40,349 nt of DNA from positions 1 through 40,349 of the forward strand of contig WHTP01000048.1 in NCBI GenBank assembly GCA_009377695.1. Direction: 5' to 3'. This DNA comes from Hyphomicrobiales bacterium (GTDB lineage: Bacteria; Pseudomonadota; Alphaproteobacteria; Rhizobiales; Xanthobacteraceae). Positions 7,883 to 24,268 of the stretch are shown here, piece by piece (positions within the stretch are counted from its first letter, which is position 1; every line of letters begins with the position of its first letter). The translations under genes and the position numbers were made by a program. The notes below the pieces were generated by a model. That model was not told where the DNA came from and made no database searches. It saw only the letters and a list, made by a program, of their open reading frames with translations.

Positions 7883-8237
7883 CTAAGAACCATCGGCATC
7901 GACTGTCTTCTCGGTCAGGGACCGGAGCACCATGCGGCCGGTGCGCTCGATGTGGTCGCGCAGCAGGCGGCACGCCTCGTCGCAACGCCTCCCGACCGTC
8001 GCACCACAGATATCGCGATGCTCCTGAGCGACATCGCGATCGATCGGATTGTTCTCGAGGAAGAGGCGGCGACAGCGGTCGCTCAGGTCGTGCAGCGTGG
8101 CGCAGAAATTGAGGAGCAAGATGAATCTTGTTGCGCGCGAGCCAGTCGCCGGCCTTGTTGATCTCCGCATCGCGGACCACGATCACCTCGGCGCGCCGGC
8201 TGCCGCCGTCAAGCACGACGACGTCGCCGAACAGCAC
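7883..8237 (-). pseudogene. Remnant of a GntR-type FCD ligand-binding domain
   Basis: Two overlapping minus-strand frames show parts of an FCD effector domain and no DNA-binding domain. One carries DWLARNK (about 8140). The other carries the following NFCATLHDLSDRCRRLF, then RDVAQEHRDIC and the typical C-terminal RLLRDHIERTGRMVL. Joining them at about 8115-8125 gives a consistent FCD C-terminal half. The remnant lies directly downstream of the intact GntR gene at 8275-9069, which already has its own complete FCD domain, so this is the tail of a second regulator left by deletion. It lies between that regulator and the Bug receptor operon. The assignment rests on pattern recognition, and the N-terminal part (VVVLDGGSRRAEVIVV) is unclear. 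Confidence 0.5.
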
Positions 8238-9069: not shown

Positions 9070-9166
9070 GTGCTCTTTACTGACCTCAGCGCGGATAGTC
9101 GCCCGGACCGGTCTCTCCCGCTGCCAGGATGCAACCTACCATGGATAGCCCTATCATAAAATAACG

Positions 9167-9210
9167 AATATCGAAATATTGTTGACAGCAGTTTGGCACC
9201 TCCCTAGGCT
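9167..9210 (+). promoter_or_regulatory. Promoter with palindromic operator before the dioxygenase operon
   Basis: AATATCGAAATATT (9167-9180) has 5-bp inverted arms around CGAA. One base later TTGACA (9182-9187) is a perfect -35 element, and 17 bases further TAGGCT (9205-9210) could be a weak -10. The operator abuts the -35 box, so a bound protein would block RNA polymerase. It lies between the divergent GntR gene and the dioxygenase gene. Closely related sequences recur at 14669, 14761, 18311, 18376 and 22952. Confidence 0.6.
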
Positions 9211-9362
9211 CCCTTACCGGAGCGGCGATATATCGGCCGGCATGGCCGGACAAATTATCATCCGGACCGATGATCCGAGTCATGGCCCGCCTGCATGTCA
9301 CGCGGGGGCGACTCCGAGAGAGCGGCATCTCTCAAGGGAGAAGCGCGCAAGAAGGGATCAAG

Positions 9363-9893
9363 ATGGATAACAGGAGACCGCCCATGTACCAGATGCCGAT
9401 CGTCAACCTGCTGGAGACTGGTAAGAAGCTTTCGGAGACGAAGAAGCAGGTGAACGTCCTGTGGCAGGAGCCGGAATCCCTGGCCTTCGTCGCGCGCGGC
9501 CGCGACTACCGCAGCGAGTTTCACATCAACCCCAGCGACGAGATGATGTACATGATCAAGGGGGAGATGCGCCTTCACTACCGGACGCCGGAGGGCAAGG
9601 AAGAGGTTGCGATCCTCCCCGAAGGCTCGGCGATATACACGCCGGCGGGTATTCCCCATTCCCCGCGATTCCCGTCCGATGCCTATGCCCTGATCACCGA
9701 GCGCAAGCGCCGCGATGGCGAGATCGACCGATTTCACTGGTACTGCATGAACTGCGATGCGTTCCTGCATGAGGAAACCTTCGTGGTCAGCGACTACACC
9801 GCCGACCCGGTTTCCAAGGCGTACAAGAATTTCTTCGACAGTGTCGAGTTCCGCACCTGCAAGAAATGCGGAACGGTGATGCCGGCGCCTTAA
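9363..9893 (+). CDS. nbaC: 3-hydroxyanthranilate 3,4-dioxygenase family protein
   Basis: A 176-residue cupin dioxygenase; the bacterial enzymes are about 175-190 residues. Metal ligands by alignment from memory with the Cupriavidus enzyme: His54 and Glu60 (FHINPSDEMM) and His99 (PHSPRF). Arg50 and Glu113 are also kept. The C-terminal second iron site is intact, with two CxxC pairs at Cys128/131 and Cys166/169. The spacing from His99 to Glu113 is one residue shorter than in the reference, close to the substrate-carboxylate arginine. Family reaction: O2-dependent ring opening of 3-hydroxyanthranilate to 2-amino-3-carboxymuconate semialdehyde. The start could be 9363 (GGGA upstream) or 9384, which has AGGAG seven bases before it. 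It heads a plus-strand run with a dienelactone hydrolase and an ABC importer. Confidence 0.85.
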   Translation: MDNRRPPMYQMPIVNLLETGKKLSETKKQVNVLWQEPESLAFVARGRDYRSEFHINPSDEMMYMIKGEMRLHYRTPEGKEEVAILPEGSAIYTPAGIPHSPRFPSDAYALITERKRRDGEIDRFHWYCMNCDAFLHEETFVVSDYTADPVSKAYKNFFDSVEFRTCKKCGTVMPAP

Positions 9894-10067
9894 CCGGCAG
9901 GCCGGCCCCGCACCGGCCAACCTCGCGCTACATCGGCGGCAACGCCGGCTCCGATCCGCAGCCGGCATTCCGGTGCAGCCCGCAGGCGCAACGCGTCCTT
10001 TTCCCGTCCGGCGTCGCGGGCGCTGGTCCTGCCTGAAGCGCCGGCCGGCGTCAACACAGTAGCCGCG

Positions 10068-10766
10068 ATGACAACTCTATCGATCACGACGCAGGACGGC
10101 CGCTCCTATGACGGATATTCCGTCGCGTCCGGTACCGCCACCGCTCCCGCCGTCCTCATCCTGCCGGAAATGTTCGGAATGAACGACGCGATGCGGCGCG
10201 TCGTGGACGATTATGCGCGCCGCGGTTTTTCCGCCTTGCTGCCGAACGTGTTCTGGCGCTCCGAGCATCCCCGCGGGCTCGCCTATGACGGAGCCGACCG
10301 CGAGCTCGCCTGGGCTCGCCTGAAGGCGCTGGACCTCGATGATACAGTCCAGGATATCGGCCTCGCGGCGCGGTTTCTGCGCGAGCGCTCGCCGTGCAAC
10401 GGAAAAGTCGTCACGATCGGATTCTGCGGCGGCGGACGCCTCGCAGTGCTCGCGGCGATGCGCCATCAGGTCGACGCGGCGGTCTCGCTCTACGGGCTCG
10501 GAATACCCCAACATTTCGAAGAAATGCGCAACATCCGCTGTCCAACCCAGCTTCATTACGGCGACGCCGACCAGCACATCCCGAAATCGGAGATCGATGC
10601 GGTCGCCAAGGCAGCGGTGCCGCATCCAACGATCGAGGTGTTCATCTATCCGAATGCCGGGCACTCCTTCTTCAATCCGGTTCGCCCCAACTACAATGCC
10701 GCAACGGCGTCCCTCGCCGCATCGCGCATCGACCGTCTGCTAGATTCCATGGGCTCGCCGCAATGA
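10068..10766 (+). CDS. Dienelactone hydrolase family protein
   Basis: A 232-residue alpha/beta hydrolase with the dienelactone hydrolase Cys-Asp-His triad: Cys120 in GFCGGGR, Asp168 in YGDADQHIP and His199 in NAGHSFFN. Glu34 in ILPEMFG fits the family glutamate that activates the cysteine. No signal peptide, so cytoplasmic. The family hydrolyses dienelactones from chloro- or hydroxy-aromatic breakdown, but many members act on other esters or lactones. The stop codon overlaps the start of the ABC ATPase gene (ATGA), so the two are translationally coupled, which ties a hydrolytic step to uptake. A second homologue lies at 19778-20494; both share the unusual VFWRS segment. Neither has an obvious step in the known aminomuconate route. 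Confidence 0.88.
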   Translation: MTTLSITTQDGRSYDGYSVASGTATAPAVLILPEMFGMNDAMRRVVDDYARRGFSALLPNVFWRSEHPRGLAYDGADRELAWARLKALDLDDTVQDIGLAARFLRERSPCNGKVVTIGFCGGGRLAVLAAMRHQVDAAVSLYGLGIPQHFEEMRNIRCPTQLHYGDADQHIPKSEIDAVAKAAVPHPTIEVFIYPNAGHSFFNPVRPNYNAATASLAASRIDRLLDSMGSPQ

Positions 10767-11560
10767 GGGCCTTCCTCCGTGTCGATCAGATCAGCAAATC
10801 CTATATCGACGGTGCCGGCGGCGCGGAGGCGAAGATTCTCAACAGCGCTTCGCTTGAAATCAGGGAAAGCGAGTTCCTCGCGGTCATCGGGCCGTCGGGC
10901 TGCGGCAAATCCACGTTCCTTCAGATCATCGCCGGCCTGATGCCGCCGACATCGGGCCGGGTCCTGCTCTGCGACAAACCGATCAGTGGCCCGCCGGCGC
11001 ACATGGTCTATCTGTTCCAGCAGTACAACAAGTCGTTGTTTCCATGGCGCACGGTCCGCGACAATGTCGCTTTTCCGATGCAGATGCGCGGCGCCGCGGC
11101 AGCCGACATCGAGCAGGCTTGCCGCGACTATATCCGCATGGTCGGCCTTGCCGGCCACGAGAACCGCTATCCGTGGCAGCTGTCCGGGGGCATGCAGCAG
11201 CGCGTCGCGATCGCGCGGGCATTGGCGGCCGAGCCGCGCATCCTGCTGCTCGACGAGCCGCTCAGCGCCGTCGATGCTCTGACGCGGATGGAGCTGCAAT
11301 CGCTGATCCTGGAAATATGGGAGCGCCAGAAGCTCACGATCCTGCTGGTGACGCACGACGTCGACGAGGCAGTCTTCATGGCGGATCGCGTCGCGACGCT
11401 GACGGTAAGCCCTGCCAGAATCGATTCCATCATCGAGACCGGGATCCCGCGACCGCGCGACCCGATCACCACCCGGGAGCGACCCGACTTCCTGACGTTC
11501 AGGCGCGACCTGCTCAATACCCTTCTCAACAGGCAGCACGCGCAGATCCCATCGACATGA
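10763..11560 (+). CDS. ABC transporter ATPase, NitT/TauT (SsuB/TauB) type
   Basis: 265 residues with a Walker A motif GPSGCGKST (43-51), a Q-loop near FQQYNKSLFPW (85-95), the signature LSGGMQQR (140-147), a Walker B ILLLDEP (160-166) and a switch histidine in LVTHDVDEA. The FPWRTVRDNV segment is typical of nitrate/sulfonate/taurine ATPases. The start ATG at 10763 overlaps the stop of the hydrolase gene by 4 bases, and the gene's own TGA overlaps the ATG of the first permease in the same way. It energises the two permeases that follow, with the binding protein at 13108. Confidence 0.93.
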   Translation: MRAFLRVDQISKSYIDGAGGAEAKILNSASLEIRESEFLAVIGPSGCGKSTFLQIIAGLMPPTSGRVLLCDKPISGPPAHMVYLFQQYNKSLFPWRTVRDNVAFPMQMRGAAAADIEQACRDYIRMVGLAGHENRYPWQLSGGMQQRVAIARALAAEPRILLLDEPLSAVDALTRMELQSLILEIWERQKLTILLVTHDVDEAVFMADRVATLTVSPARIDSIIETGIPRPRDPITTRERPDFLTFRRDLLNTLLNRQHAQIPST

Positions 11561-12312
11561 GCACGGCGACAAAGGCGCTTCAGGCGACGCTGTCATTTGC
11601 GGCGGTACTCGCCGTATGGGAGCTGCTGGGGCGCGCCGTGCTCGTTAACGCCGTGCTGCTTCCGCCGCCCTCGCTCATTGCCCCGACGCTTGCCGACATC
11701 ATCGTTTCCGGCAGCTTCCTGCGCCCGCTGCTTGAGACGCTGCTGCTGTTCGCCGTCGGCTACTCGATCGCCTGTATTCTCGGCGTCGCAATCGGGCTGG
11801 CGATGGGATGGTATGATCGCGTCTATTATCTTCTCGAGCCAACCATAGAGCTGCTGCGGCCGATTCCGAAGGTCGCGCTGGTCCCGCCGCTGTTCCTGTT
11901 CCTCGGGCTCGGCGCGTCGATGAAAATCACGACGGTCGCCCTCGCCGCGTTCTTCCCGGTGCTGATTGCGACCATCCAGGGCGCCCGCGGCGTCGATCCA
12001 GTGCTGGTGAACACCGCCCGCACGCTCGGTGCCGGGCCGGCGCGGATCGTGTTCCGGATCGTGCTTCCGGCTTCGCTGCCGCTGATCTTCACCGGAATGC
12101 GCGTCAGCCTCGCGCTCGGCCTGATCGTCGAGATCCTCGCCGAGATGCTGTCGGGCGAAGGCGGCCTCGGCTACCTGATCGTCGACATGCAGCGCTCGTT
12201 CGCGATCCGGCAGATGTATGCGTGGATCATCATTCTCGCCGCGGTCGGACTGTTTCTGAACTTCGTCTTCGAATATCTCGAATCCCGCATCGTCTACTGG
12301 CGAGGCAAGTAG
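11557..12312 (+). CDS. ABC transporter permease 1, NitT/TauT (SsuC/TauC) type
   Basis: A 251-residue inner-membrane protein with about six hydrophobic segments and the BPD_transp_1 coupling region (residues near 145-180, ARTLGAGPARIVFRIVLPAS), which contacts the ATPase. It begins at the ATG overlapping the ATPase stop. The longer open frame running upstream to 11044 is only the out-of-phase reading of the ATPase gene. The next permease starts on the base directly after its stop, so the two are translated together and probably form a heterodimeric channel. Confidence 0.92.
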   Translation: MSTATKALQATLSFAAVLAVWELLGRAVLVNAVLLPPPSLIAPTLADIIVSGSFLRPLLETLLLFAVGYSIACILGVAIGLAMGWYDRVYYLLEPTIELLRPIPKVALVPPLFLFLGLGASMKITTVALAAFFPVLIATIQGARGVDPVLVNTARTLGAGPARIVFRIVLPASLPLIFTGMRVSLALGLIVEILAEMLSGEGGLGYLIVDMQRSFAIRQMYAWIIILAAVGLFLNFVFEYLESRIVYWRGK

Positions 12313-13071
12313 ATGAAGAAGCGCACGGCCGGAATAGTGCTGCTGATCCTGCTGCTGCTGCTCTGGGAGGCATCGGCCCGCTTCGGCTGGGTGAAAAGCG
12401 AGAACTGGCCGACGCTCGTGGCGGTGCTTGAGGTGACCTATCGCCAACTTCTTTCGGGCGAGCTCTCCCTGGTTCTGGCCGCCAGCATGGCGCGCATGAT
12501 CGTCGGCTTCGTCATCGGCAGCCTCTGCGGGATCCTGCTCGGCCTGCTGCTAGGCACCCTGCGCACGCTCGACGGATTCCTCACGCCGCTTGTGGAAGCG
12601 GTGCGCCCGATACCGGTCCCGGCGATCATACCGCCGCTCATCCTCTTTCTCGGTATCGACGACGCCTTGAAGATCTTCGTCGTCGCCTTCTCCGTGTTCT
12701 TTCCGATGCTGGTCAGCACCGTCGGAGGGGTCAGGAATGTCGACGAGACGCTGATCCGTACGGCGCGGACCTTGCAGACGACGCAGGGCTCGATTCTCCG
12801 TTTCGTTATTTTGCCGGCAGCACTGCCCTCGATCATGTCGGGCTTCCGCATCAGCCTGCCGCTGGCGCTGATCACCACGGTGGTTGCGGAGATGATCGCT
12901 GGATCGAGCGGGATCGGCTACGTCATCGTCCGCGCGCAATATGCGATGCAGCCGCAGGAAATGTATTCCGCGGTGCTGTGCCTAATGGTGATCGGCTATC
13001 TGCTCAACCTGCTGTTCCTGCTGTTCGAACGGCGCCTGATCCCCTGGTACCACCTGTCCGAGAACGCCTGA
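12313..13071 (+). CDS. ABC transporter permease 2, NitT/TauT (SsuC/TauC) type
   Basis: A 252-residue membrane protein homologous to permease 1. It opens with a hydrophobic signal-anchor segment rich in leucine, has a PIPVPAIIPPLILFLGI segment in mid-protein and a coupling region around RTARTLQTTQGSILRFVILPA. About six membrane helices are visible. The ATG immediately follows the TAG of permease 1. Having two different permeases is less usual than a homodimer in this family and indicates a heterodimeric translocator. Confidence 0.92.
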   Translation: MKKRTAGIVLLILLLLLWEASARFGWVKSENWPTLVAVLEVTYRQLLSGELSLVLAASMARMIVGFVIGSLCGILLGLLLGTLRTLDGFLTPLVEAVRPIPVPAIIPPLILFLGIDDALKIFVVAFSVFFPMLVSTVGGVRNVDETLIRTARTLQTTQGSILRFVILPAALPSIMSGFRISLPLALITTVVAEMIAGSSGIGYVIVRAQYAMQPQEMYSAVLCLMVIGYLLNLLFLLFERRLIPWYHLSENA

Positions 13072-13107
13072 TCCGGCGCGACAAGTAATCAATGAGAGGA
13101 GACGACG

Positions 13108-14067
13108 ATGTTGACGAGGGCACTGGCGATACTGCTTCTGTGCGTCTGTTTGCCAGCGGGCGCGCTCGCCCAGACGACGAAGCTGCGCGTGAGCACCAAT
13201 CAGAATATCGATGCGGCGGCCTTCGAGGCCGCCAAGGCCAACGGCTATTTCGCCGAGGAAGGCCTCGAGATCGACACCACGCCGGTGGTCGGCGGCGCCG
13301 TCGGGCTTCCGGCGGTTGCCGCCGGCCAGGTCCAGATCGCCGCGAGCAATCTGATAACGATCGTTCTCGGCGTGAAGAACGGCCTACCCTTCAAGATCAT
13401 CGCCGCAGGAGACGCCTCGAGCAGCGCGCCGCCGGACCTCGCCGGTGTCGCGGCAAAGCCGGAGAGCGGCATCAAGAGCGGAAAGGAGCTTGAGGGCAAG
13501 CGGCTCGCCGTCAACACCCGCAACAACATCATCTGGATGTTCGCCCGCGCCTGGGTCGAGGCGACCGGCGGCGATCTCCGCAAGGTGAGCTTCATCGAGG
13601 TGCCCTTCCCGCAGATGGTCGACGCGATCCGCCAAGGGCGCGCCGATGCCGCCTTTATCGTCGAGCCGTTCCTCTCGGTCGGCCTGAAGAGCAAGGAGAT
13701 CGAGGTGATCGGCTGGCCCTATGCCACGGTGCTGAAGAATGCACCGATCTCGCAATGGGTAGCGAGCAAGACATATATCGACCAGAACCCCCAAGTGATC
13801 GACAAATTCGTCCGCGCGTATAATCGCGGGACCGACTGGATCAACGAGAACAACCGCAACGAGAAATGGGTGTCGCTCATTTCCGGCTATACGCGGATCG
13901 CGCCCGACATCGTCAGGACGGCCGCCACCCCGTTGTTTGTCAAATCGATGGACGTCGGTCAGATCGAGAAGTCGATCGAGCTGATGCGCAAGCACGGCCT
14001 GCTGCAGGCGGGGGACCGCATCGACGTTCCCGGCCTGCTGTACCGGACGGTGGCGAGCCAGAAATAG
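13108..14067 (+). CDS. ABC transporter periplasmic substrate-binding protein, NitT/TauT (SsuA/NMT1-like)
   Basis: 319 residues. A Sec signal peptide (MLTRALAILLLCVCLPAGALA) is cut before QTTKLRVSTNQN. The mature part is a type II periplasmic-binding fold of the SsuA/NMT1 class, with KANGYFAEEGLEID early, GAVGLPAVAAGQVQIAAS as a ligand loop and GRADAAFIVEPFLSVG later. The ribosome-binding site is GAGAGGAG just before the ATG. It is the last gene of the importer block, 36 bases after permease 2. Relatives bind sulfonates, nitrate, pyrimidine precursors or aromatic acids. Here the surrounding catabolic genes make an aromatic or heteroaromatic carboxylate likely, by inference only. Confidence 0.9.
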   Translation: MLTRALAILLLCVCLPAGALAQTTKLRVSTNQNIDAAAFEAAKANGYFAEEGLEIDTTPVVGGAVGLPAVAAGQVQIAASNLITIVLGVKNGLPFKIIAAGDASSSAPPDLAGVAAKPESGIKSGKELEGKRLAVNTRNNIIWMFARAWVEATGGDLRKVSFIEVPFPQMVDAIRQGRADAAFIVEPFLSVGLKSKEIEVIGWPYATVLKNAPISQWVASKTYIDQNPQVIDKFVRAYNRGTDWINENNRNEKWVSLISGYTRIAPDIVRTAATPLFVKSMDVGQIEKSIELMRKHGLLQAGDRIDVPGLLYRTVASQK

Positions 14068-14160
14068 CTCCACTGACGGAGGGGGCAGCCACCTTCTCGC
14101 TCTGCCGCCCGGACAAACGAGAGGCAGGGACGGCGCCGCCGGCCCTGCTGAATTCTGCGC

Positions 14161-14565
14161 TTAAGCGAACATCGCGACGCAATCGATCTCGACATTGACG
14201 CCGGTTCGATGCGGCGTCCCGCCGATGCAGGTCCGCGTCACCTTCTCGCCGCCGAGATAGCTCTGGAAGACCTCGTTGAAGCGCGGGAAATCCGCGACAT
14301 TGCGCAGCACAACGCGCACATTGACCACGTTCTTCCACGTCGCCCCGGCGGCCTCGAGAACGCCGACGAGGTTGTCGAGGGTGCGGCGCGTCTGCACCTC
14401 GATGTCGCCCTCCACCACCGTCCGCGTCGTCGGATCGAGCGGCCCCTGCCCCGACAAAAACAGCATGTTGCCGCAGCGGATGGCCTGCGCGAGCGGCGAC
14501 GGCTTCTGCAGATCGGTGAACCCGGTTGTCGGTGACTTCGCCGACGTGACAATTTGCTTCTGCAC
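14161..14565 (-). CDS. RidA/YjgF-family protein, probable 2-aminomuconate deaminase
   Basis: 134 residues from the GTG at 14565, which has a strong GGGGGAG ribosome-binding site nine bases upstream. A longer frame from 14646 has no such signal and an atypical N-terminus. The protein shows the RidA features: LFLSGQGPLDP, the QTRRTLDNLVGVLEAAGA helix, the conserved arginine in TRTCIGG and the glutamate in NVEIDCVA. RidA proteins deaminate enamines and imines, and the 2-aminomuconate deaminases of nitrobenzoate and aminophenol pathways belong to this family. Given the neighbouring aminomuconate semialdehyde dehydrogenase, that role is likely. It is divergent from the hydratase gene, with two mirrored copies of the shared operator-like motif in between. 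Confidence 0.8.
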   Translation of the reverse strand: MQKQIVTSAKSPTTGFTDLQKPSPLAQAIRCGNMLFLSGQGPLDPTTRTVVEGDIEVQTRRTLDNLVGVLEAAGATWKNVVNVRVVLRNVADFPRFNEVFQSYLGGEKVTRTCIGGTPHRTGVNVEIDCVAMFA

Positions 14566-14668
14566 GACTAAATACTCCCCCGCCTCAAACTGCGCGCTGA
14601 TGGCGAGCGCGGTCGCACAAGGCGGCACCGCACTCATCCCCGCCATCTCAATCGGTGGTCACGGGGAA

Positions 14669-14689
14669 GTCAATAAAAAAATCGATATT
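14669..14689 (-). promoter_or_regulatory. Operator-like motif and -35 box before the RidA gene
   Basis: On the minus strand the sequence reads AATATCGAT, a run of T, then ATTGAC. TTGAC falls at 14673-14669 and points towards the RidA gene, about 100 bases before its GTG. It mirrors the plus-strand copy at 14761-14780; both contain CGAT followed by T-run and ATTGACTT. No good -10 is visible 17 bases downstream. Confidence 0.5.
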
Positions 14690-14760
14690 ATAGAGCTCGC
14701 GTGGGTTTCTCGGCCAAAATTCGACGCTGCTTCAAAAGCACTGGTAGCTCGAAAGCAGAG

Positions 14761-14781
14761 AAATTTCGATTTTTATTGACT
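14761..14781 (+). promoter_or_regulatory. Operator-like motif and -35 box before the hydratase gene
   Basis: AAATTTCGATTTTTATTGAC (14761-14780) ends in a TTGACT -35-like box about 67 bases before the hydratase start at 14848. It is the inverted partner of the motif at 14669-14689. Together they frame an 70-base divergent control region between the RidA and hydratase genes. Confidence 0.5.
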
Positions 14782-14847
14782 TGGGGATGCAGACTGCTTT
14801 CTCTCCCGGGGTTCCGGGTTTGCCGACACCAAGAGGACGTCTCCTGC

Positions 14848-15630
14848 ATGCTCTCCGACGCCGACCGCAAACGCGCTGCCGACATCCTGATCGCCGCCGA
14901 GGAGGAACGGCGCCAGGCCGTTCAGCTGTCGACGGCGTGGCCGGAGATCGAGATCGAGGATTCCTACGCGATCTCGACCCTGGTCGCGGAGCGCAAGATC
15001 GCCCAGGGCGCGCGGCTGATCGGACACAAGGTCGGCCTGACATCGAAAGCCATGCAGCGCTCCTCGCAAATCGACGAGCCGGATTACGGCCATCTCCTCG
15101 ACACGATGATGATCGCCGACGGCGCCAAGATTCCGCACGACCGCTATTGCCGGCCACGTGTCGAGGTCGAACTGGCATTCGTCCTCGGCAAGACGCTGAA
15201 AGGACCCGGCGTCGGGCTGACCGATGTGCTGCGTGCAACGGAATATGTCGTCCCCGCGATCGAAATCGTCGACGCGCGGATCCAGGATCAACGCAAGATA
15301 TTCGATACGGTCGCGGATAACGGCGCGGCCGCCGGCATCGTCATCGGCGGGCGGCCGGTCGGTCCGACCGACGTCGATCTGCGCTGGGTCGGGGGCATCA
15401 TGTATCGCAACTCCGAGATCGAGGAGACCGGCCTTGCCGCCGGCGTGCTCGGACACCCGGCGCTCGGCGTCGCCTGGCTTGCGAACAAGCTCGGGCAGCA
15501 TGGCGTCGCCCTTGAGCCCGGCCACCTGATCCTCGCCGGCTCGTTCACCCGCGTCGTGTTCGCCAACAAAGGCGACACGCTGCATGGCGACTTCGGCGCG
15601 CTCGGCGGCATTGCCGTTCAGTTCGTCTGA
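14848..15630 (+). CDS. hpaH: HpaH-type 2-oxo-dienoate hydratase (fumarylacetoacetate hydrolase superfamily)
   Basis: 260 residues from the ATG at 14848 (GAGGACG upstream); the family is about 260-267. The upstream extension of the same frame crosses the promoter region and is not credible. Characteristic stretches are [20 protein letters not shown] (residues about 54-73), the metal-site region [26 protein letters not shown], and the C-terminal [19 protein letters not shown] recognise this as closest to HpaH, 2-oxo-hept-4-ene-1,7-dioate hydratase. The same family includes vinylpyruvate hydratases and 4-oxalocrotonate decarboxylases, which can be told apart only by tree placement. In this cluster it would act after deamination, on 4-oxalocrotonate or on 2-oxopent-4-enoate. 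Only one such gene is present although the known route needs both a decarboxylase and a hydratase. Confidence 0.85.
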
Positions 15631-15772
15631 TGCGTTCGCGGCGTATTTCTTTCGCCGCGGTCGGATCGGATGTCGTCCTTCTGGCGCGCGCCGCCGATCA
15701 GCGCAATGCAAGCGGGCCGTTGCAAGCTCGGTGTAGCAGCGGCCCCTGTGCCGCCGATCGCAGGATCGGCGG

Positions 15773-16744
15773 CTAAACGGACGGCACGGCGGCCGCTTCG
15801 AGCCCCGGCATCAGCGACAAGGCATTATCGCGTTCGATCTTGCGGAGCGTTCCGGCATCGAGGCCGAGCGACGCCAAGGCCTTGACGCTCGCCGTGGTGG
15901 TCGATTCCGGGGCGAACGGGTAATCGCTGCCGAACAGTATCCGGTCATCGGACACCAGCTGCCTCATGCCGCTGATGGAATAGGCGTTCGCCGACAGTGC
16001 CGTATCGAAATATAGACGCCTGAGCTCGTTGATGGCGCCGTCCGGCACATGACGCTTGAACTGCGGGCGGACCTCCAGACGTGCGATCCGTTCGGCCAGG
16101 AACGGAATGGTGCCGCCGGCATGCGAGAAGATAAAGCGAATGTTCTGACACCGCGCCAGCGTTCCCGAGAACAGCAAGTCAGTGACGGCGCGCGTCGTGT
16201 CGAACGGAAAATCGAGCGTCGCAGCAGGAATATGCTTGAGGCACTGGTTGCAGGCGCCGACAGTCGGATGGAAATAGACCACGGCGCCGCGGCGGTTGAG
16301 CTCGTCGAACACCGGAGCAAACTCCGGATCGCCTGGATACCGATCGCCATAACTTGTCAGCAAACCGATGCCGTCCGCCCCCAGTTCGTCGAAAGCGAAC
16401 GTGATCTCCCGCAGGCTCGCCTCAACATCCGGCAGCGGGAGGCACGCGAACAGCCCAAACCGCCCCAGATAGTCGCTGCGCATGCGCGCTGCATATTCAT
16501 TGCAGTGCCGGCACAGCGCGCGAGTCGCCTCGCGGTCATTCACGCACACGCCCGGCGCCGACATCGAAAGGACCGCGGTCGCGATGCCGTGCCGGTCCAT
16601 GACGTCGATCGAATGCGAGGGCCGCCAGTCCGGAGCCTCGCCGGATACGATCAGGCTGCCGATCGCCTCGCGGCCGACGATGCGCACATAATCCGGCGGA
16701 AGAAAATGATGGTGGGTGTCGATCCGGTGTGGCGCGGAGGGCAT
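15773..16744 (-). CDS. Amidohydrolase of the ACMSD superfamily (probable decarboxylase)
   Basis: 323 residues. The metal site of the amidohydrolase-2 family is present: His11 and His13 (DTHHHF), His159 (VYFHPT), His208 (FSHAGGT) and Asp274 (GSDYPF). This is the 2-amino-3-carboxymuconate-6-semialdehyde decarboxylase (ACMSD) superfamily, which performs non-oxidative decarboxylation. Position in the cluster fits the step after ring cleavage. However, the segment before the conserved MD (HSIDVMD, about 44-50) has serine where I recall a substrate-binding arginine (Arg51) in the Pseudomonas enzyme, so another carboxylated substrate is possible. The stop of the dehydrogenase gene is 12 bases upstream of its start, so the two form a minus-strand operon. 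Confidence 0.78.
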   Translation of the reverse strand: MPSAPHRIDTHHHFLPPDYVRIVGREAIGSLIVSGEAPDWRPSHSIDVMDRHGIATAVLSMSAPGVCVNDREATRALCRHCNEYAARMRSDYLGRFGLFACLPLPDVEASLREITFAFDELGADGIGLLTSYGDRYPGDPEFAPVFDELNRRGAVVYFHPTVGACNQCLKHIPAATLDFPFDTTRAVTDLLFSGTLARCQNIRFIFSHAGGTIPFLAERIARLEVRPQFKRHVPDGAINELRRLYFDTALSANAYSISGMRQLVSDDRILFGSDYPFAPESTTTASVKALASLGLDAGTLRKIERDNALSLMPGLEAAAVPSV

Positions 16745-16756
16745 GTCAGGGCAGTC

Positions 16757-18259
16757 TCACAGCTTGATGCAGACATTGCTGGGCTCAGAATAGAAGTTCA
16801 GCGAATGGACGCCACCCTCGCGGCCGATGCCCGACATCTTCAAGCCGCCGAAGGGCGTGCGCAGATCCCTGAGAAACCAGCAATTGACCCAGGTGATGCC
16901 GACCTCGATCGCGCGCGCCACGCGGTGAGCGCGGCTGAGATCGCTTGTCCAGATGCTGGCCGCGAGGCCGTAGACGCTGTCATTGGCGGCGCGAACGACC
17001 TGCGCCTCCTCGTCGAACGGGGCGATGTGGCAGACCGGACCGAAAATCTCCTCCTTGACGCAGCGGGCGCTTTCGTCGAGGCCGGTCCAGATCGTCGGCT
17101 GGACGAAGAAGCCGTTGTCGCGCGCGTCGCCGAATCGTGGCACGCCGCCGCCCGTCACGACCCGGGCGCCTTCCGCGACCGCGAGCTTGTAGTAGTTCAG
17201 CACCTTGGTGCGGTGCTCGGCGGAAATCAGGGGGCCTAATGTCGTATCAGCCGATTGCGGCCATCCGGGCTTGAGCGCCTCCGCCTTCGCCTTGAGCGCC
17301 TCGACGAAACGCTCAAAGATCGGCCGCTCGACATAAACGCGCTCAGGCGCGAGGCACACCTGCCCGGTATTCGAGAACACCGCATGGGCGATACCGTCGA
17401 CCGTCTTGGTGAAGCCAGCATCCGCAAAGACAACGGCCGGGTTCTTCCCGCCGAGTTCAAAGGAAATGGCTTTGATGCCGTCGGAGGCAGCCCGCATGAT
17501 GGCGGAACCGGTGCGGCTTTCGCCGGTGAAGGTGATGGCATCGACGCCAGGGTGGCGGGTCAGGATCTCTCCCGCCGACTGCGGGCCAAAGCCGTGAACC
17601 AGGTTAAGAACGCCGCGCGGAATCCCGACCTCCTGCGCGACCTCGGCGAGCAAAGTGGCCGTGGACGGCGTCTCCTCGGACGGCTTGATGACGACCGTGT
17701 TACCCGACGCGAGCGCTGGCGCGACCTTCCAGGTCAGCAGCAGCAGCGGCAAATTCCACGGCGATATGACGGCGACGACGCCGTGAGGCCGGCGCACGGC
17801 GTAATTGAGCGCCCGCCCGCCGTCGTGCGTGTCCATCTCGTAGAATTCGGTCGAAGCTGCGGCGATCGCATCCGCGAACACCCGGAAATTGGCAGCGCCG
17901 CGGGGAATATCGAGATGGCTCGCCACCGACACGGGCTTTCCGGTGTCGGCGACCTCGGCGGCGACGAAGTCGTCAAAACGCTTCTCTATGCCGCTGGCGA
18001 GCGCATTGAGAAAACGCCGCCGTTCATTGAGCGGGATCGCGCGCCAGTGATCGAGCGCCTGGCGCGCCGCCGCGACCGCGCGGCCGACGATGGCATCGTC
18101 GGCCTCATAGGCGCGGGCATGGACCGTGCCGTCGACGGGGTTCACCACATCGAAGGGCTTGCCCTCGTCTATGAAGGCCCCATCGACGAAATTGCGCAGC
18201 CGGGTTTGGCCGGCGGCGGCACCGCCCAGGTCGCGGGCGAGCACGGCGGACACAGTCAT
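16757..18259 (-). CDS. nbaE: 2-aminomuconate-6-semialdehyde dehydrogenase
   Basis: Exactly 500 residues from the ATG at 18259, which has AAGGAA upstream; a longer frame to 18352 would cross the probable operator. NAD-dependent aldehyde dehydrogenase with catalytic Cys302 (GQVCLAPERV), Glu268 (FELGGKNP) and oxyanion Asn169 (SPWNLP). Arg120 (DIPRGAANF) and Arg464 (WFLRDLR) fall at the numbers I recall for the two arginines that hold the substrate carboxylates in the Pseudomonas 2-aminomuconate semialdehyde dehydrogenase. The ending GGVHSLNFYSEPSNVCIKL is also characteristic of that subfamily, which includes the 2-hydroxymuconate semialdehyde enzymes. Reaction: 2-aminomuconate-6-semialdehyde to 2-aminomuconate. 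First gene of an operon with the ACMSD-type decarboxylase; the motif at 18311-18327 lies about 55 bases upstream. Confidence 0.9.
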   Translation of the reverse strand: MTVSAVLARDLGGAAAGQTRLRNFVDGAFIDEGKPFDVVNPVDGTVHARAYEADDAIVGRAVAAARQALDHWRAIPLNERRRFLNALASGIEKRFDDFVAAEVADTGKPVSVASHLDIPRGAANFRVFADAIAAASTEFYEMDTHDGGRALNYAVRRPHGVVAVISPWNLPLLLLTWKVAPALASGNTVVIKPSEETPSTATLLAEVAQEVGIPRGVLNLVHGFGPQSAGEILTRHPGVDAITFTGESRTGSAIMRAASDGIKAISFELGGKNPAVVFADAGFTKTVDGIAHAVFSNTGQVCLAPERVYVERPIFERFVEALKAKAEALKPGWPQSADTTLGPLISAEHRTKVLNYYKLAVAEGARVVTGGGVPRFGDARDNGFFVQPTIWTGLDESARCVKEEIFGPVCHIAPFDEEAQVVRAANDSVYGLAASIWTSDLSRAHRVARAIEVGITWVNCWFLRDLRTPFGGLKMSGIGREGGVHSLNFYSEPSNVCIKL

Positions 18260-18310
18260 GTAGAAAATTCCTTGTGCCAAGGCGCAGTCGCAGAGCGCCG
18301 GAGATTTCGT

Positions 18311-18327
18311 ATTATTTCGATATTTGC
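18311..18327 (-). promoter_or_regulatory. Operator-like motif before the dehydrogenase operon
   Basis: On the minus strand this reads AAATATCGAAATAAT, the same core as at 9167 and 18376. It lies 52-68 bases before the dehydrogenase ATG. Unlike the other copies it is not followed by TTGAC, so the -35 element must lie elsewhere and the site may act as an operator only. Confidence 0.45.
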
Positions 18328-18375
18328 AGGAAAAAACAGCACAGATCAACAAGTTAGGATGTCGGAAACCTCCAG

Positions 18376-18395
18376 AATATCGAAATTAATTGACG
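18376..18395 (+). promoter_or_regulatory. Operator-like motif and -35 box before the Pht5-like gene
   Basis: AATATCGAAATTAATTGAC (18376-18394) carries the shared core and ends in a TTGACG -35-like box. It lies about 220 bases before the TTG start of the Pht5-like gene, leaving a long leader in which nothing else was recognised. With 18311-18327 it forms a divergent pair, like the pair at 14.7 kb. Confidence 0.5.
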
Positions 18396-18612
18396 CGACC
18401 CGGCCCGATCGGGCAGTCTTTTCGACCATCAAATGCCTGATCCCACAATCTTTGCCCGACCGGTTCGCGCACGCAATCCTGACGCAGATACAGATCACAT
18501 GAACCGCGTTGGCAGTCCTTCTGCCGCGATTGCCGGCAGGGACAGAGACTCGGCGACCGATATAGCCGGTCGCTGCCGTTCCGAGCTCTGATATCGAACC
18601 TTGGAGGCATTA

Positions 18613-19605
18613 TTGGCACCGCTCCGTCTTACGCTGGCCTGCTGGAATTACGACCGCACCGGCCCTCTGGCCACCGGCACCATCAAGCCGGCAGGCATCG
18701 AGCTCGTCTACCTCGAGCAGCCGGTGGAAGAGACGTTCTTCCGTATGGCGCGCCACCGGGAGTTCGACATCGCCGAAATGTCGCTCTCGACCTATTGCGT
18801 CACCTTGATGAAGGACGATCCGGACTTCATCGCGATCCCGGTCTTCCCGTCCCGCATGTTCCGCCATTCCGGAATTTATGTGTCGACGAAAAGCGGAATC
18901 GACAAGCCGCAGGATCTCGCGGGCAAGCGGATCGGCTGCCCGGAATTCCAGCTCACGGCCTTTGTCTGGATCCGCGGCGTGCTGGCCGAGGAACATGGCG
19001 TTCCAAGCAGCAGCCCATCCTACTGGACCGGCGGCGAGGAGGAACCTGGCCGGCCCGAGAAGATCAGCATCACTCTGCCAGATCGTTTTCGTGTCCGGCG
19101 CATCGGGCCGACGCAGATCCTGTCGCAGATGCTGGCCGACGGTGACCTCGATGCGCTCTATGCCACGCGGATGCCGTCGACGCTGCATACGCGGCCCGGC
19201 GACGTCAGGCGGCTGTTCGAGGATTCCCGCGCCGCCGAGCAGGACTATTTCCGGCGCACTCAAATCTTTCCGATCATGCACACGGTCGTGATTCGCCGCG
19301 ACCTCTACCGGCAACATCCGTGGATCGCGGTTTCCCTGCTCAAAGCCTTCTCAGAAGCCAAGGCGGTCGCGATGCGCGACCTCTACGAACTGGCTGCGTT
19401 GACAACAATGCTGCCGTGGCAGGTGGTGCATGTGGAGGAAACCCGCCGGGCGCTGGGCGAGGACTGGTGGCCCTACGGGCTTGCCCCGAACCGGCATGTG
19501 CTGGAAAAGTTTCTGACCTATCATCATGAACAGGGGCTCTCGCACCGGCTGCTCACGCCCGAAGAGCTGTTCGCGCCGGAGACGCTTGAATCGTTCAAGA
19601 TCTGA
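18613..19605 (+). CDS. 4,5-dihydroxyphthalate decarboxylase (Pht5)-like protein
   Basis: 330 residues from the TTG at 18613, chosen because GGAGG lies five bases before it; no ATG is available nearby. The sequence resembles Pht5-type 4,5-dihydroxyphthalate decarboxylases, which have a periplasmic-binding-protein fold: LACWNYDRTGPL at the start, FDIAEMSLSTYCV (about 55-67), FPSRMFRHSGIYV, and a C-terminal EELFAPETLESFKI. Such proteins are often labelled ABC binding proteins, but there is no signal peptide here, so it is probably cytoplasmic and enzymatic. Pht5 removes one carboxylate from a dihydroxyphthalate to give protocatechuate. In an aminomuconate-type cluster a carboxylated amino-aromatic substrate would be new; this is inference. 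Confidence 0.75.
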   Translation: MAPLRLTLACWNYDRTGPLATGTIKPAGIELVYLEQPVEETFFRMARHREFDIAEMSLSTYCVTLMKDDPDFIAIPVFPSRMFRHSGIYVSTKSGIDKPQDLAGKRIGCPEFQLTAFVWIRGVLAEEHGVPSSSPSYWTGGEEEPGRPEKISITLPDRFRVRRIGPTQILSQMLADGDLDALYATRMPSTLHTRPGDVRRLFEDSRAAEQDYFRRTQIFPIMHTVVIRRDLYRQHPWIAVSLLKAFSEAKAVAMRDLYELAALTTMLPWQVVHVEETRRALGEDWWPYGLAPNRHVLEKFLTYHHEQGLSHRLLTPEELFAPETLESFKI

Positions 19606-19777
19606 TCGGCTCCACCGCTGAACCGTATCGACCGGCCGCCTCGGTTTATCCGGCGGTCGCTGGCCGGTTGCCTACCTCTCCTATGCTACCGGTCTGCGAG
19701 TTCCAGCTCTTGCTCCGCGGCCGAGGTGTCTCTGGTCGGGGCGCTTTGATCAGGGCCAGGCGCCGCAGCGCGCGATC

Positions 19778-20494
19778 TTAAGCATCTTTGAAACTATCCA
19801 ACAGCGCGTCGATCCGCTTCTGCGCCAGCTCGACGGCGGCGGCATCGTAGGCCGCACGAAGCGGATTGAAGAAGGCGTGCCCCACGCCGGGATAAAGGAA
19901 GACCTCGACATGGCCGCCTGGCCTCGTCGCCTCCGTCACCTCGTCGACCTCGAATCGCGGAACGTGAATGTCGGCAAGGCCGTAGTGCAATTGGACCGGA
20001 CATTTGATGCCCGGCACTTCGTCGAGATGGTTCCTGATGCCGAGCGCATAGAGCGAGATTCCGGCATCCACGCCGGCGCGTATGCTCGCCAGAAAAGCCG
20101 TGCGCCCTCCCATGCAGAAGCCGATCACCGCCACTTTGCCGGAGCAGGACGGCGAGCGGCGCAGCCAGTTGACCGCGACGCCGATGTCGTCCACGCCGCG
20201 ATCGAAATCATACTGGCGCAGTCGCTCCCATGCTGCGTCACGCGCGGCTCCTTCCGCCGAGATCACGCCGGTCTCGTCCGAACGCCAGAACACGCTCGGC
20301 ACCAGCGCGCAAATTCCACGGCGGGCATAGCGGTCGGCCAAGTTGCGGTTGAGCTCGGTCGTGCCCCACATCTCGGTGATGATGATGAGGCCCGGCCCGA
20401 CGCCGCTCTGCGGACGCGAGAGGTAAGCGTCGAAAACCCGCCCATCTTCTTCGGCCAGGATTGGGTTCTCGGTGATGATCTTAACGTCCGGCAT
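19778..20494 (-). CDS. Dienelactone hydrolase family protein (second copy)
   Basis: 238 residues with the full triad Cys127 (GFCMGGR), Asp175 (YGLADIHVP) and His206 (GVGHAFFN), and the activating Glu41 in IITEMWG. It is cytoplasmic and of normal family length. It is recognisably related to the product of 10068-10766 but far from identical, so it is not a recent duplicate. It points away from the Pht5-like gene and has no same-strand partner within 390 bases upstream. The shared motif is not seen before it, so it may be regulated separately. Substrate unknown; a lactone or ester made during aromatic breakdown is the family expectation. Confidence 0.88.
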   Translation of the reverse strand: MPDVKIITENPILAEEDGRVFDAYLSRPQSGVGPGLIIITEMWGTTELNRNLADRYARRGICALVPSVFWRSDETGVISAEGAARDAAWERLRQYDFDRGVDDIGVAVNWLRRSPSCSGKVAVIGFCMGGRTAFLASIRAGVDAGISLYALGIRNHLDEVPGIKCPVQLHYGLADIHVPRFEVDEVTEATRPGGHVEVFLYPGVGHAFFNPLRAAYDAAAVELAQKRIDALLDSFKDA

Positions 20495-20886
20495 CGGTCG
20501 CGCTCACATCATCGGGCCGCGGCAACGGTTTGCGAGGACCCATCTGCTTCATCATGGCCTGATAGAGTGCAGGTCCGCATCATCGAGCGACGCTCGAAGC
20601 GACGGTAACTCTCGACACGATGAGGTGCTTTCCCCATCGATGTTGTGCCCATCTACAGACGTACTTTTTATTCATGCGTGCCGTTCAATTCATCTTTGGG
20701 CTTCGTCCTCCTCGGGTGTCTCTCATTTCGCTCCGGGGGCCGGTCGAGCGACAGCTTCAACGACGGACCGTCCCATCCCAGCTTGTCGCGCGCGTAGAGC
20801 CCCCGCGCGCACCGCCCTCACGGCCCCTGGGGGCGGCGCACCTTCATTCCATGAGATCGATGATCGGCCGACCATCCGCGTGGCGG
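20495..20886. other. Intergenic, no gene seen
   Basis: The 392 bases between the second dienelactone hydrolase gene and the Bug receptor gene, both on the minus strand, contain open frames on the plus strand with no family resemblance. The 20620-20700 part is relatively AT-rich and could hold the promoter of the hydrolase gene. No copy of the shared AATATCGAAAT motif and no clear terminator for the receptor gene were found. Confidence 0.4.
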
Positions 20887-21894
20887 CTAAAGGTGAGCAT
20901 AGGCCTCGACGGTCTCCCGCGTGATCCCCGAGATCATGTCACGCACGCCTTGTTCGATCGCCGGTCCGGAGAGCGCGTCCGTCGGTTCGCCGATCGTGTG
21001 GGCCCGCTCCTGGAAGGCAGGATCCGCCGCCATCGCCATGAATGCCCGCTGCAGCATTTCCACCCGCTCGGGCGGCGTACCCGGCGGAGCAACGAGCGGC
21101 GTTCCGAGCATGGCCTGGCCATGCGCAAGCCGCATCAGGGACCGGTCCTTCTCGTCCACGAGGCTCTCGGCCGTCGGCTTGCCCGGGATCTTCGGCAGGG
21201 TCTGGAACAGAATCTGCACCGTCCCGCTGTTGAGCAGATCGCGACGCCGCGCAAACGCACTCTCCGGGGCGTAAACAGCATCGACTTCCTTCTGCTCCAT
21301 TGCCAGGACAATGCGGGACGTATTGCCGTAACCCCCGATGATCTCGACCGGCCATCCCCGAAGCTGCAGGAGCCTCGGGACAGCCGATACGAGTGTCGTC
21401 CCGGGAACGCCACCGAACAGGATCTTGCGGGGCGCGCTGCGCAGGTCGGCAGCGCTGTGAACCCCGGTATCGCCACGAACGAAAGCCACGCCGTTGGTGG
21501 CACCGGTCGATCCGATGAACCGAAGCTTCAGCGGATCAAAACGCACGTTGTTGAAGCCGAGCAGCGGCTTCAACAACCAGTCGCGGCCGGGCACGGCGAG
21601 AACGGTGCCGTCCTGCGGAGCCCTCACCACTAGGTTATTGGCGGCAACGATCCCGCTCGCGCCCTCCATGTTCTGGACGAGCGTTCGCGGGTTGCCGGGA
21701 ATGAACCTTCCGATGAAGTTGCCGATGAGCCGTGTCACCAGATCGACACCACCACCCGGGTTGTAGCCGCAGATGATCGTGATGGTCTTGCCGCTATAGA
21801 AGTCTGCGGCTTGCGCCGCCCGACGCGACAGCGGCGCAAACCCGATCGCAAGCGCGCCGGCACACAGATCGCGTCTCGTCACATGCCCCCGCAT
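20887..21894 (-). CDS. TctC/Bug-family receptor with Tat-like signal
   Basis: 335 residues. The N-terminus MRGHVTRRDLCAGALAIGF has a twin-arginine (TRRDLCAGA) followed by a hydrophobic stretch and ARRAAQA-like cleavage region, so export by Tat rather than Sec is possible. The mature part begins ADFYSGKTITIICGYNPGGG and has the FIPGNPRTLVQNMEGASG segment shared with the frameshifted receptor at 25420, which puts both in one subgroup of the tripartite-tricarboxylate receptors, distinct from those at 6787 and 24269. The gene is second after the 2-oxoglutarate dioxygenase gene on the same strand, 146 bases downstream, so transport and oxidation are probably linked. No TctA or TctB partner is in the window. 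Confidence 0.85.
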   Translation of the reverse strand: MRGHVTRRDLCAGALAIGFAPLSRRAAQAADFYSGKTITIICGYNPGGGVDLVTRLIGNFIGRFIPGNPRTLVQNMEGASGIVAANNLVVRAPQDGTVLAVPGRDWLLKPLLGFNNVRFDPLKLRFIGSTGATNGVAFVRGDTGVHSAADLRSAPRKILFGGVPGTTLVSAVPRLLQLRGWPVEIIGGYGNTSRIVLAMEQKEVDAVYAPESAFARRRDLLNSGTVQILFQTLPKIPGKPTAESLVDEKDRSLMRLAHGQAMLGTPLVAPPGTPPERVEMLQRAFMAMAADPAFQERAHTIGEPTDALSGPAIEQGVRDMISGITRETVEAYAHL

Positions 21895-22040
21895 GCTTGC
21901 ACTCCTCTCCGTCGGCGCAGTCCCAGCTCCACCCAGGACATCAGGTTACTTGCTATCAATGCGCAGGGCGAGCCTGTCCTTTGAGCACGGCTGCCGTCGA
22001 AAACCGCATTGTGCGCAGCCCGACGCATGAACGCTGAAGC

Positions 22041-22886
22041 TCAAGCGATCGTCACGCGATCCATGTGCCGACGATGGGGTTCGTATCCTCGATAATCAAA
22101 GAAATAATCCGCCGTCACGCGATGCTGCGTGGCGTGGTTGTCCCAGAACGCCAGCGAGTTCTTTTCCCATCGGAAGCGGCAGGCGAAGTCCGAGTTCTCT
22201 GCATGCACCCTGACGAAATCGAGAATGGCCTCGCTTTCGGCTGCCTTCATGCTTTGAATGCGTCCTAATCCCTTGCGTGCCGGGAACAAGGCTTTCTTGC
22301 CCGTGACGGGATGGATGCGGACGAGCGGATGAATCGCTTCGGTCGGCTCGGCTTCGAGAAACCGCATCGAACGGTTCTTGCCCGGCCGGTATCCGATCGG
22401 ATTTTGCAAATGGAGACACTTCAGCGGATCGACGATTCGCTTCATCTCGTCGGAGAGCGCCTCGTAAGCGATATACATGTTCGCGAACTGAGTGTCGCCG
22501 CCGAAGGGCGGCACCTCGCGGGCGAGCAGAAATGAACCGGCCGGCGGCGATGCAAGGAAAGGAAGGTCCGAGTGCCAGCCGTCGCCCCAGTTTTCCTTCT
22601 CGTTGGCTTCCTTGATGACCTCGAGAATTTCCGGATAGCCGGGCTTGCTCGCCGTGGTCGGATGAATGTGAAGCTCGCCGAACTGCCGCGCCAGGGCAAG
22701 ATGCTGTTCCGGCGTCAGCACCTGATCGCGAAAGAAGACAACGAGGTGATCCTGAAAGGCTGTCTTGATGTCGGAGAAGGTGTCGCGGTCCAACGGCTGG
22801 GCAAGGTCGACCCCCTCCACCATCGCCCCAAGCGCGCCGGTTACCGGTTCTATACGGATATGGTTGGGGCGCGCTGCATTGGCCAT
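22041..22886 (-). CDS. TauD/TfdA-family Fe(II)/2-oxoglutarate dioxygenase
   Basis: 281 residues, the usual length of TauD/TfdA enzymes. The iron facial triad is visible: His105 and Asp107 (WHSDLPF) and the distal His255 (HATQHRVTADYF). The 2-oxoglutarate-binding arginine lies in HRRHMDRVTI near the C-terminus. The family hydroxylates sulfonates, aryloxyacetates, alkyl sulfates and similar acids, often cleaving the product. The start ATG at 22886 is preceded by GGAGGAA. The gene is divergent from another dioxygenase (23110) and is followed by a Bug receptor on its own strand. The substrate cannot be told from the sequence. Confidence 0.9.
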   Translation of the reverse strand: MANAARPNHIRIEPVTGALGAMVEGVDLAQPLDRDTFSDIKTAFQDHLVVFFRDQVLTPEQHLALARQFGELHIHPTTASKPGYPEILEVIKEANEKENWGDGWHSDLPFLASPPAGSFLLAREVPPFGGDTQFANMYIAYEALSDEMKRIVDPLKCLHLQNPIGYRPGKNRSMRFLEAEPTEAIHPLVRIHPVTGKKALFPARKGLGRIQSMKAAESEAILDFVRVHAENSDFACRFRWEKNSLAFWDNHATQHRVTADYFFDYRGYEPHRRHMDRVTIA

Positions 22887-22951
22887 CGTTCCTTCCTCCG
22901 ATCACTCGCGTTTCTCGCTAAGCACGACATGGGACACCCCTGGTGTCAACC

Positions 22952-22980
22952 AAAATTTCGAAAATCGATTTTCATTGACA
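22952..22980 (+). promoter_or_regulatory. Palindromic operator and promoter between divergent dioxygenase genes
   Basis: GAAAATCGATTTTC (22960-22973) is a perfect 14-bp palindrome, immediately followed by ATTGACA. TTGACA (22975-22980) is a consensus -35; 17 bases on, GATAGT (22998-23003) can serve as a -10, all pointing to the gene at 23110. The geometry, operator then TTGAC, matches the sites at 9167, 14761 and 18376, which extends the proposed regulon to this block. Confidence 0.55.
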
Positions 22981-23109
22981 TCGATCGAATGCGATTCGAT
23001 AGTCGGCCGCCGGACAAACTCGACTTGCCTTGTTCTGAAGCGCCCACGCGCGGGTAGCGGACGCCGGCCGGTGCATTTTGCCGGCCCCTCGCATACAGGA
23101 GGACAGTGG

Positions 23110-24246: not shown

Positions 24247-24268
24247 CTTTAGATGCAGGAGCTGTTTC

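Follow-up and report, generated by a model that had tools for sequence, protein, structure and literature searches.

A BphS-like GntR/FCD regulator and six TCGA palindromes predict a meta-cleavage regulon in a Hyphomicrobiales bacterium

We analyzed a stretch of 40,349 nucleotides from a Hyphomicrobiales bacterium (the whole of contig WHTP01000048.1, assembly GCA_009377695.1; hereafter, the window), in which a gene for a GntR/FCD regulator (8275..9069, minus strand) adjoins a cluster of putative catabolic genes. The encoded protein carries a winged helix–turn–helix and an FCD domain (Pfam PF00392 and PF07729, both above cut-off). Sequence comparison makes it highly probable that it is a BphS/AphS-like regulator of six palindromic sites in the window, likely repressing a meta-cleavage regulon. 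On this comparative evidence we take the regulon to be real, with an operator of a known type and an unusual target pathway.

The original prediction had proposed one operator-like sequence, occurring six times before five or six transcription units and mostly followed by TTGAC within a few bases. All six occurrences were found where they had been reported, each a palindrome with A/T arms around a TCGA core (cores at 9171, 14682, 14766, 18317, and 18380, with a double core at 22958/22965). TTGAC lies 6–8 bp past the core at five of the six sites, the proportion noted originally, with 18311(−) the sole exception. Operator 1 (AATATCGAAATATT; 9165..9180, plus strand) is followed by TTGAC at 9182–9186. 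Operator 2 (14676..14691, minus) faces a RidA-family gene and has its TTGAC on the minus strand at 14669–14673, 8 bp from the core, and Operator 3 (14760..14775, plus; TTGAC at 14776–14780) faces a hydratase gene. Operator 4 (18311..18326, minus), the site that lacks TTGAC, is ∼50 bp upstream of the start of a dehydrogenase gene and, as we read the sequence, may overlap a −10 region; Operator 5 (18374..18389, plus; TTGAC at 18390–18394) faces a Pht5-like gene. Operator 6 (22952..22974) contains the double core and has TTGAC on both strands, at 22975–22979 (plus, 6 bp) and 22945–22949 (minus, 8 bp), giving six oriented site–TTGAC units and about seven candidate transcription units. All six sites are confined to four divergent intergenic regions (9070–9362, 14,647–14,847, 18,263–18,600, and 22,887–23,077), which together make up 1023 bp of the 40,349; sites 1 and 6 are placed between divergent genes in the same way as the two pairs recognized originally.

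We asked how often the site recurs beside related regulators, using 37 relatives (37%–61% identity) that came from one scan of named genomes and belong to Azospirillum, Bosea, Bradyrhizobium, Aquabacter, Steroidobacter, Rhodocyclaceae, and others. Of the 37, 24 have WWWTCGAWWW no more than 400 bp from the regulator match (40 sites). When the core was exchanged for any one of 15 other palindromic tetramers and the A/T context kept, 0–5 relatives had a match, and dinucleotide shuffling of the flanks gave a mean of 2.12 (maximum 6). Because eight of the 24 positive relatives are Bosea-type loci that closely resemble one another, fewer than 24 cases are independent. Later searches, of 385 and 397 genomes, added five loci. 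The core was present in every one, with other cores found in zero or one of the five; among them, the site of L206 is ∼1.4 kb from the regulator and that of L208 has the same sequence as the site of L053. Regulators this close to the window protein (E-value of 1e-58) are rare in these samples: outside its own genome they were met in 2/384 of the class sample and 3/396 of the order sample.

A weight matrix was built from 29 distinct relatives' sites and from none in the window. Applied to the window, it scored Operators 1–6 above everything else, at 22.6, 24.5, 21.7, 24.4, 25.0, and 23.1 bits, respectively (first core, 22958, in the case of Operator 6), followed by 12.3 bits for the second core of site 6 (22965) and then 11.8. 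The matrix was derived from matches to WWWTCGAWWW, so the core was given in advance; the order and the score gap were not. In an unbiased k-mer count over 30 of the 37 loci (seven Bosea-like loci removed), G+C-rich words led the 8-mers, with AATATCGA the last of 14 listed (12/30 loci) and the sole A/T-rich word among them; for 10-mers, AAAATATCGA ranked second and AATATCGAAA third (7/30 loci each). TTGAC followed at 6–7 bp on 14 of the 76 dereplicated site sides of the relatives, seven of these 14 being Bosea-type, and the three other TTGAC matches within 40 bp were at 2 or 4 bp (two) and 28 bp (one). In the Bosea locus L040, one site faces a gene for a periplasmic binding protein, a second is found 66 bp before the regulator match, and genes for a short-chain dehydrogenase, a semialdehyde dehydrogenase, an FAH-family hydratase, and an HpcH/HpaI aldolase follow downstream. 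Bosea-type relatives carry a second site 57–67 bp ahead of the match to their own regulator.

In principle, the repeat could be no operator at all but ordinary A/T-rich promoter sequence upstream of −35, where UP elements of such composition can be found. The intergenic regions are indeed poorer in G+C than the window (0.49–0.57 vs. 0.63). Moreover, an initial test with a first site matrix, in which two of seven centers were misaligned, placed hits near 22 of the 37 regulators, and shuffled A/T-rich matrices landed there too (column shuffles: mean 12.78, standard deviation 3.80, maximum 24; 10 of 500 reached 22). That test was discarded and replaced by the core-specific count given above. The specificity for the TCGA core over the 15 alternatives, and the small number of matches elsewhere in the genome, make this explanation hardly credible.

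We then compared the window (0.69% of the assembly) with the rest of the genome (5,845,390 bases in total, about 95% complete). Genome-wide counts were obtained by pattern searches, as opposed to a weight-matrix scan, and additional outside sites could be missed. The word AATATCGAAAT with at most two mismatches occurred 13 times in the window, against a mean of 4.33 and a maximum of 10 in 100 shuffles (orientations counted separately). Three of its four exact genome copies are inside the window (none for the reversed-pattern control; binomial 1e-6), the fourth being within a gene that we read as a putative glycogen phosphorylase. For AWWTCGAWWTW, six of 36 places (45 rows, merged by hand) fell in the window, where 0.25 were expected (binomial 2e-7; reversed control, four rows genome-wide), and for TCGAWWWN{3,5}TTGAC it was six of 19, with 0.13 expected (binomial 3e-9; reversed control, one). 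These patterns were composed once the window sites were known, and the binomial probabilities are therefore descriptive and no proof. By all three patterns the motif was less frequent elsewhere in the genome than in the window, the opposite of the outcome that the original prediction had named as fatal to it.

A looser word, AAWWTCGAWWWT, gave 239 rows genome-wide with one mismatch allowed. Among the matches listed, it occurred without mismatch at five window places (22954 and 22961 counted separately) and at five outside, which scored 14.2 (C64), 20.3 (C108), 19.8 (C109), 21.4 (C168), and 17.8 bits (C176) with the relatives' matrix. None of these five had TTGAC at 6–8 bp, and C64 had it at 3 bp. 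Outside the window the matrix was applied to these five places, to 30 AWWTCGAWWTW places, and to 13 TCGA–TTGAC places. The four best all lacked TTGAC at 6–8 bp; C123:35598 (21.1 bits) is in overlapping open frames, and a lower-scoring place, C53:33578 (18.5 bits), is between apparently convergent genes. We judge the high-scoring outside places, C168 included, to be chance matches. The window is distinguished by its number of good sites combined with TTGAC, not by a unique score.

To place the regulator, we inferred a quick IQ-TREE phylogeny of 74 regulators (a short search without bootstrap, containing several long rows), which left out the C94 regulator pieces L089 and L091; L093 and L094 had no match at the cut-off. 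The window protein belongs to a clade of 31 rows with an SH-aLRT support of 99. The larger group around it includes a second, separate clade of 14 rows (96), in which a bph-adjacent regulator of P. naphthalenivorans is found together with one adjacent to phenol hydroxylase genes. The window protein is thus outside the AphS/BphS clade, in a neighboring clade of its own, and we call it BphS-like and not BphS. Within its clade, 23 of the 30 other rows have the site within 400 bp, and four (L037, L046, L047, and L067) carry it elsewhere in their stretch. TCGA palindromes were also observed near seven distant GntR/FCD regulators of 36%–40% identity (L136, L141, L143, L144, L147, L148, and L151), and the TCGA operator type may be wider than AphS/BphS plus the window's clade. 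Comparison of sequences establishes the sites, their recurrence beside relatives, and the type of operator.

Several observations weigh against the regulon as we describe it. The best scored places outside the window reach 21.4, 21.1, 20.3, and 19.8 bits, close to the weakest window site (21.7), and 13 of the 37 relatives have no core within 400 bp, with three members of the window's clade (L038, L051, and L054) lacking the site in their whole stretch. In the 14-row BphS/AphS clade the strict pattern is found within 400 bp of only six regulators; in P. naphthalenivorans the strict match is 341 bp upstream, and the nearer copy is imperfect. A promoter scan of 9000–23,200 returned three promoters versus 3.0 in shuffles, which is no excess; the −10 boxes are weak, and the scan recovered only the 22975 promoter among those linked to sites. 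A position just upstream of −35 would suit activation as well. Finally, the core is near 15 of the 43 regulators outside the window's clade, and the operator is not private to it. The case rests on the core-specific count in relatives and on the clustering of sites, and its odds were therefore left unchanged by the narrower score gap and the 6/14 count.

The cores near regulators outside the clade would also suit a scheme in which the sites belong to another regulator in the genome, the GntR neighbor being incidental or limited to itself and the first operon. The dispersal of six sites across 14 kb points the same way, as does a second, decayed FCD regulator gene that adjoins the intact one (7910..8185, minus strand; one in-frame TGA). 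However, this remnant matches only the C-terminal part of such proteins, and the next best match to the intact regulator in its own genome is 38% identical over residues 12–126, is absent from the tree, has a different recognition helix, and has no site in its locus. Even allowing for a genome that is about 95% complete, we consider control by another regulator very unlikely. The remnant is 33%–42% identical to several relatives and suggests that a former regulator of the cluster has decayed. That one regulator, the 8275–9069 protein, serves the listed units, as originally proposed, is supported by the same palindrome beside its relatives and by the fit of the published AphS/BphS operator.

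The recognition helix of this protein, YDIGMSPLREALTRLVGD, resembles the helices of operator-carrying relatives. Its sequence reads IGMSPLREAL; an SR precedes the proline motif in four of five aligned solved relatives, the arginine being the residue that reads G in FadR, and relatives with TCGA sites have M, L, H, A, or others at that position. The predicted structure has an ordinary GntR/FCD fold (mean pLDDT of 83.2), and the 50 solved structures listed first were 12%–28% identical, including DNA-bound VanR Atu1419 and PmiR.

We propose that the 8275–9069 protein would bind as a dimer to all six sites, each a 14-bp palindrome approximating AAWWTCGAWWTT. Because most sites are directly upstream of a TTGAC −35 box, the bound protein would most likely block RNA polymerase at about seven promoters. 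A meta-cleavage intermediate would then bind the FCD domain and free the regulator from DNA, switching on genes for uptake and meta-cleavage of an amino-hydroxybenzoate (of the 3-hydroxyanthranilate or 4-amino-3-hydroxybenzoate type). The relief of repression is modeled on BphS of KKS102, which, according to the excerpted text of PMC10282184, represses when the meta-cleavage intermediate HOPD is absent. We infer repression, and with it the label of repressor that the original prediction had used, as well as the class of inducer, the substrate, and binding by this particular protein.

The same protein could instead activate at most of the six sites, recruiting polymerase in the presence of a ligand. 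The six oriented units have their cores 6–8 bp ahead of TTGAC, a possible activator position, and GntR activators are described in this field (BphR1 of KF707 and ORF0 of LB400; PMC10282184, same excerpt). We nevertheless regard activation as rather unlikely, since the spacing differs by 2 bp among promoters, the 18311 site has no downstream TTGAC, and the second site of Bosea-type loci is, by our reading, between a possible −35 and −10. The 18311 site and the Bosea sites close before the regulator gene fit the positions that a repressor would take. It is about an even call whether a BphS-like regulator was recruited to an amino-hydroxybenzoate meta-cleavage pathway as its operator spread to about seven promoters, and whether the ring-cleavage product that it senses is of the amino- or hydroxymuconate type. 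If so, this would be a new regulon, possibly with a new inducer class for TCGA-operator regulators.

The core pairs 14682/14766 and 18317/18380 are 84 and 63 bp apart, equal to eight and six helical turns. Pairs under 100 bp in relatives are spaced at 74 (L033), 95 (L034), 63 (L052 and L125, the same regulator), and 73 bp (L057), and all pairs under 100 bp, in window and relatives alike, are within 0.05 of whole turns (at 10.5 bp per turn), as opposed to 0.19–0.48 off for pairs 118–173 bp apart. Both the window and L035 also have two cores with a spacing of 7 bp. This post hoc observation hints at helical phasing; if true, the pairs at 84 and 63 bp would let two dimers bind cooperatively to the same face of the DNA.

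The genes linked to the sites most likely fit one pathway, meta-cleavage of a presumed amino-hydroxybenzoate plus its uptake. The first putative operon (9270..14067, plus strand; co-transcription judged from gene order) encodes a 3-HAO-like dioxygenase, a dienelactone-hydrolase-family protein, an ABC ATPase, two permeases (the second at 12,313–13,071, named from our reading of the sequence), and an NMT1-type binding protein. The ring-cleavage dioxygenase (9363–9893, likely start at 9363) matches Pfam 3-HAO and scores below the NCBIfam 3HAO equivalog cut-offs (122.9 of 220 and 113.9 of 145.95 bits), and its substrate is accordingly a presumed one. Further along are a RidA-family enamine deaminase (14,161..14,646, minus; Pfam Ribonuc_L-PSP), a candidate 2-aminomuconate-type deaminase, and an FAH-family protein like 2-oxo-hept-4-ene-1,7-dioate hydratase (14,848..15,630, plus; NCBIfam HpaH, 368.5 bits with a cut-off of 351.5). 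A putative operon at 15,773..18,262 (minus) consists of a 2-hydroxymuconic semialdehyde dehydrogenase (16,757–18,262; TIGR03216, 824.6 bits with a cut-off of 693.25) followed by an amidohydrolase (15,773–16,744; Pfam Amidohydro_2, no NCBIfam match) that is perhaps ACMSD-like. The gene at 18,601..19,605 (plus) had been read as Pht5-like; its product had no Pfam match at 0.001 and scored 26.2 bits against the SsuA subfamily (cut-off of 163.5). That name is provisional, SsuA-like being the other description. Another set of genes, presumably co-transcribed (19,778..22,886, minus), encodes a TauD-family dioxygenase (22,041–22,886), a TctC-like receptor below the Pfam cut-off (20,887–21,894), and a second dienelactone-hydrolase-family protein (19,778–20,494), and on the other side of Operator 6 are a second TauD-family protein, assigned by Pfam, and a TctC-type receptor (24,269–25,237, by reading), together spanning 23,078..25,237 (plus). 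Ring cleavage of 3-hydroxyanthranilate would use enzymes of these kinds. The same is expected of 4-amino-3-hydroxybenzoate (PMC6449761).

We looked for precedents around orthologs of the dioxygenase (HAO), of which 13 others (56%–78% identity) were found in a sample of 296 genomes of the family. None of the 13 has the strict W3-TCGA-W3 pattern in the 500 bp before the HAO match, a distance that may fall short of the promoter where HAO is inside an operon. A site does occur elsewhere in eight of these stretches, that of L159 being 230 bp past a GntR relative of 40% identity. Partner genes were seen for RidA in five stretches (one 33% identical), FAH in three, aldehyde dehydrogenase in two, and an ACMSD-like protein in one, several of the 13 being short contigs. 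In L062 and L064, a GntR regulator that belongs to the 14-row BphS/AphS clade and has a TCGA site stands at the head of a pair of dehydrogenase and ACMSD-like genes, a partial precedent for this combination of regulator and pathway. It looks as though a BphS-like regulator was recruited to the pathway. A search of the full-text, open-licence part of PubMed Central returned no paper in which a GntR protein regulates a 3-hydroxyanthranilate or 2-aminomuconate operon.

Other features of the window were noted in passing. A terminator-like hairpin with a 13-bp stem (21,547–21,577, minus) is inside the TctC-like gene at 20,887–21,894. Near the contig start, 137–823 (plus) encodes a LysR substrate-binding domain without its DNA-binding part. 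Downstream of the cluster are genes that by eye resemble a tyrosine recombinase (27,169–28,161, plus) and an IS-type transposase (39,491–40,168, minus), and a single open frame of 2500 codons spans 30,776–38,278 (plus).

What began as a motif seen by eye can now be tested as a regulon whose regulator is named and whose operator type is known, and the site can help to predict regulons among aromatic-degradation genes that are poorly annotated. Two other known systems were considered and set aside. FadR-subfamily operators share with the window sites a palindrome and A/T-rich flanks, and the excerpted text of PMC4494728 gives their standard form as GT-N2/3-AC, with exceptions including BioR and NanR; read directly, the six window palindromes contain no GT...AC boxes. 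The glutarate-responsive GntR-family repressor CsiR/GlaR is the best NCBIfam match of the window protein and, like our candidate, a GntR repressor of a catabolic operon. It was rejected as an identity (138.5 bits with a cut-off of 218; far away in the tree), and its E. coli sites, as they appear in the excerpt of PMC6265302, are TTGTN5TTTT and ATGTN5TTTT, with no TCGA palindrome.

The closest likeness is to AphS and BphS, with which the window protein shares the GntR winged helix–turn–helix and FCD architecture by Pfam. It is 39.9% identical over the matched part to the bph-adjacent regulator of P. naphthalenivorans pPNAP01, which we take to be the BphS of the published comparison. The recognition helix reads GMSPLREAL in the window versus GAGTLREAL or SGGTVREAL on the AphS/BphS side. 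In the excerpted part of that comparison, the AphS/BphS operator is an even 14-nt palindrome, AAATmTCGAkATTT (earlier AwATATCGATATwT), several sites precede the regulated genes, and both proteins are termed repressors (Suvorova and Gelfand 2019; PMC6449761). With its 14-nt palindrome, A/T arms, and TCGA core, the window operator is by sequence of this type, differing in the base beside the core (A or T versus m/k). As excerpted there, the phenol and biphenyl systems of Betaproteobacteria resemble the window in their GntR-family regulator, TCGA palindrome, several sites per regulon, usually divergent arrangement, and meta-cleavage targets (PMC6449761); the window differs in apparently targeting an amino-aromatic pathway. 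Our results suggest that the AphS/BphS operator perhaps belongs to a wider range of GntR/FCD regulators, from Alphaproteobacteria and other groups, and would there serve different meta-cleavage pathways.

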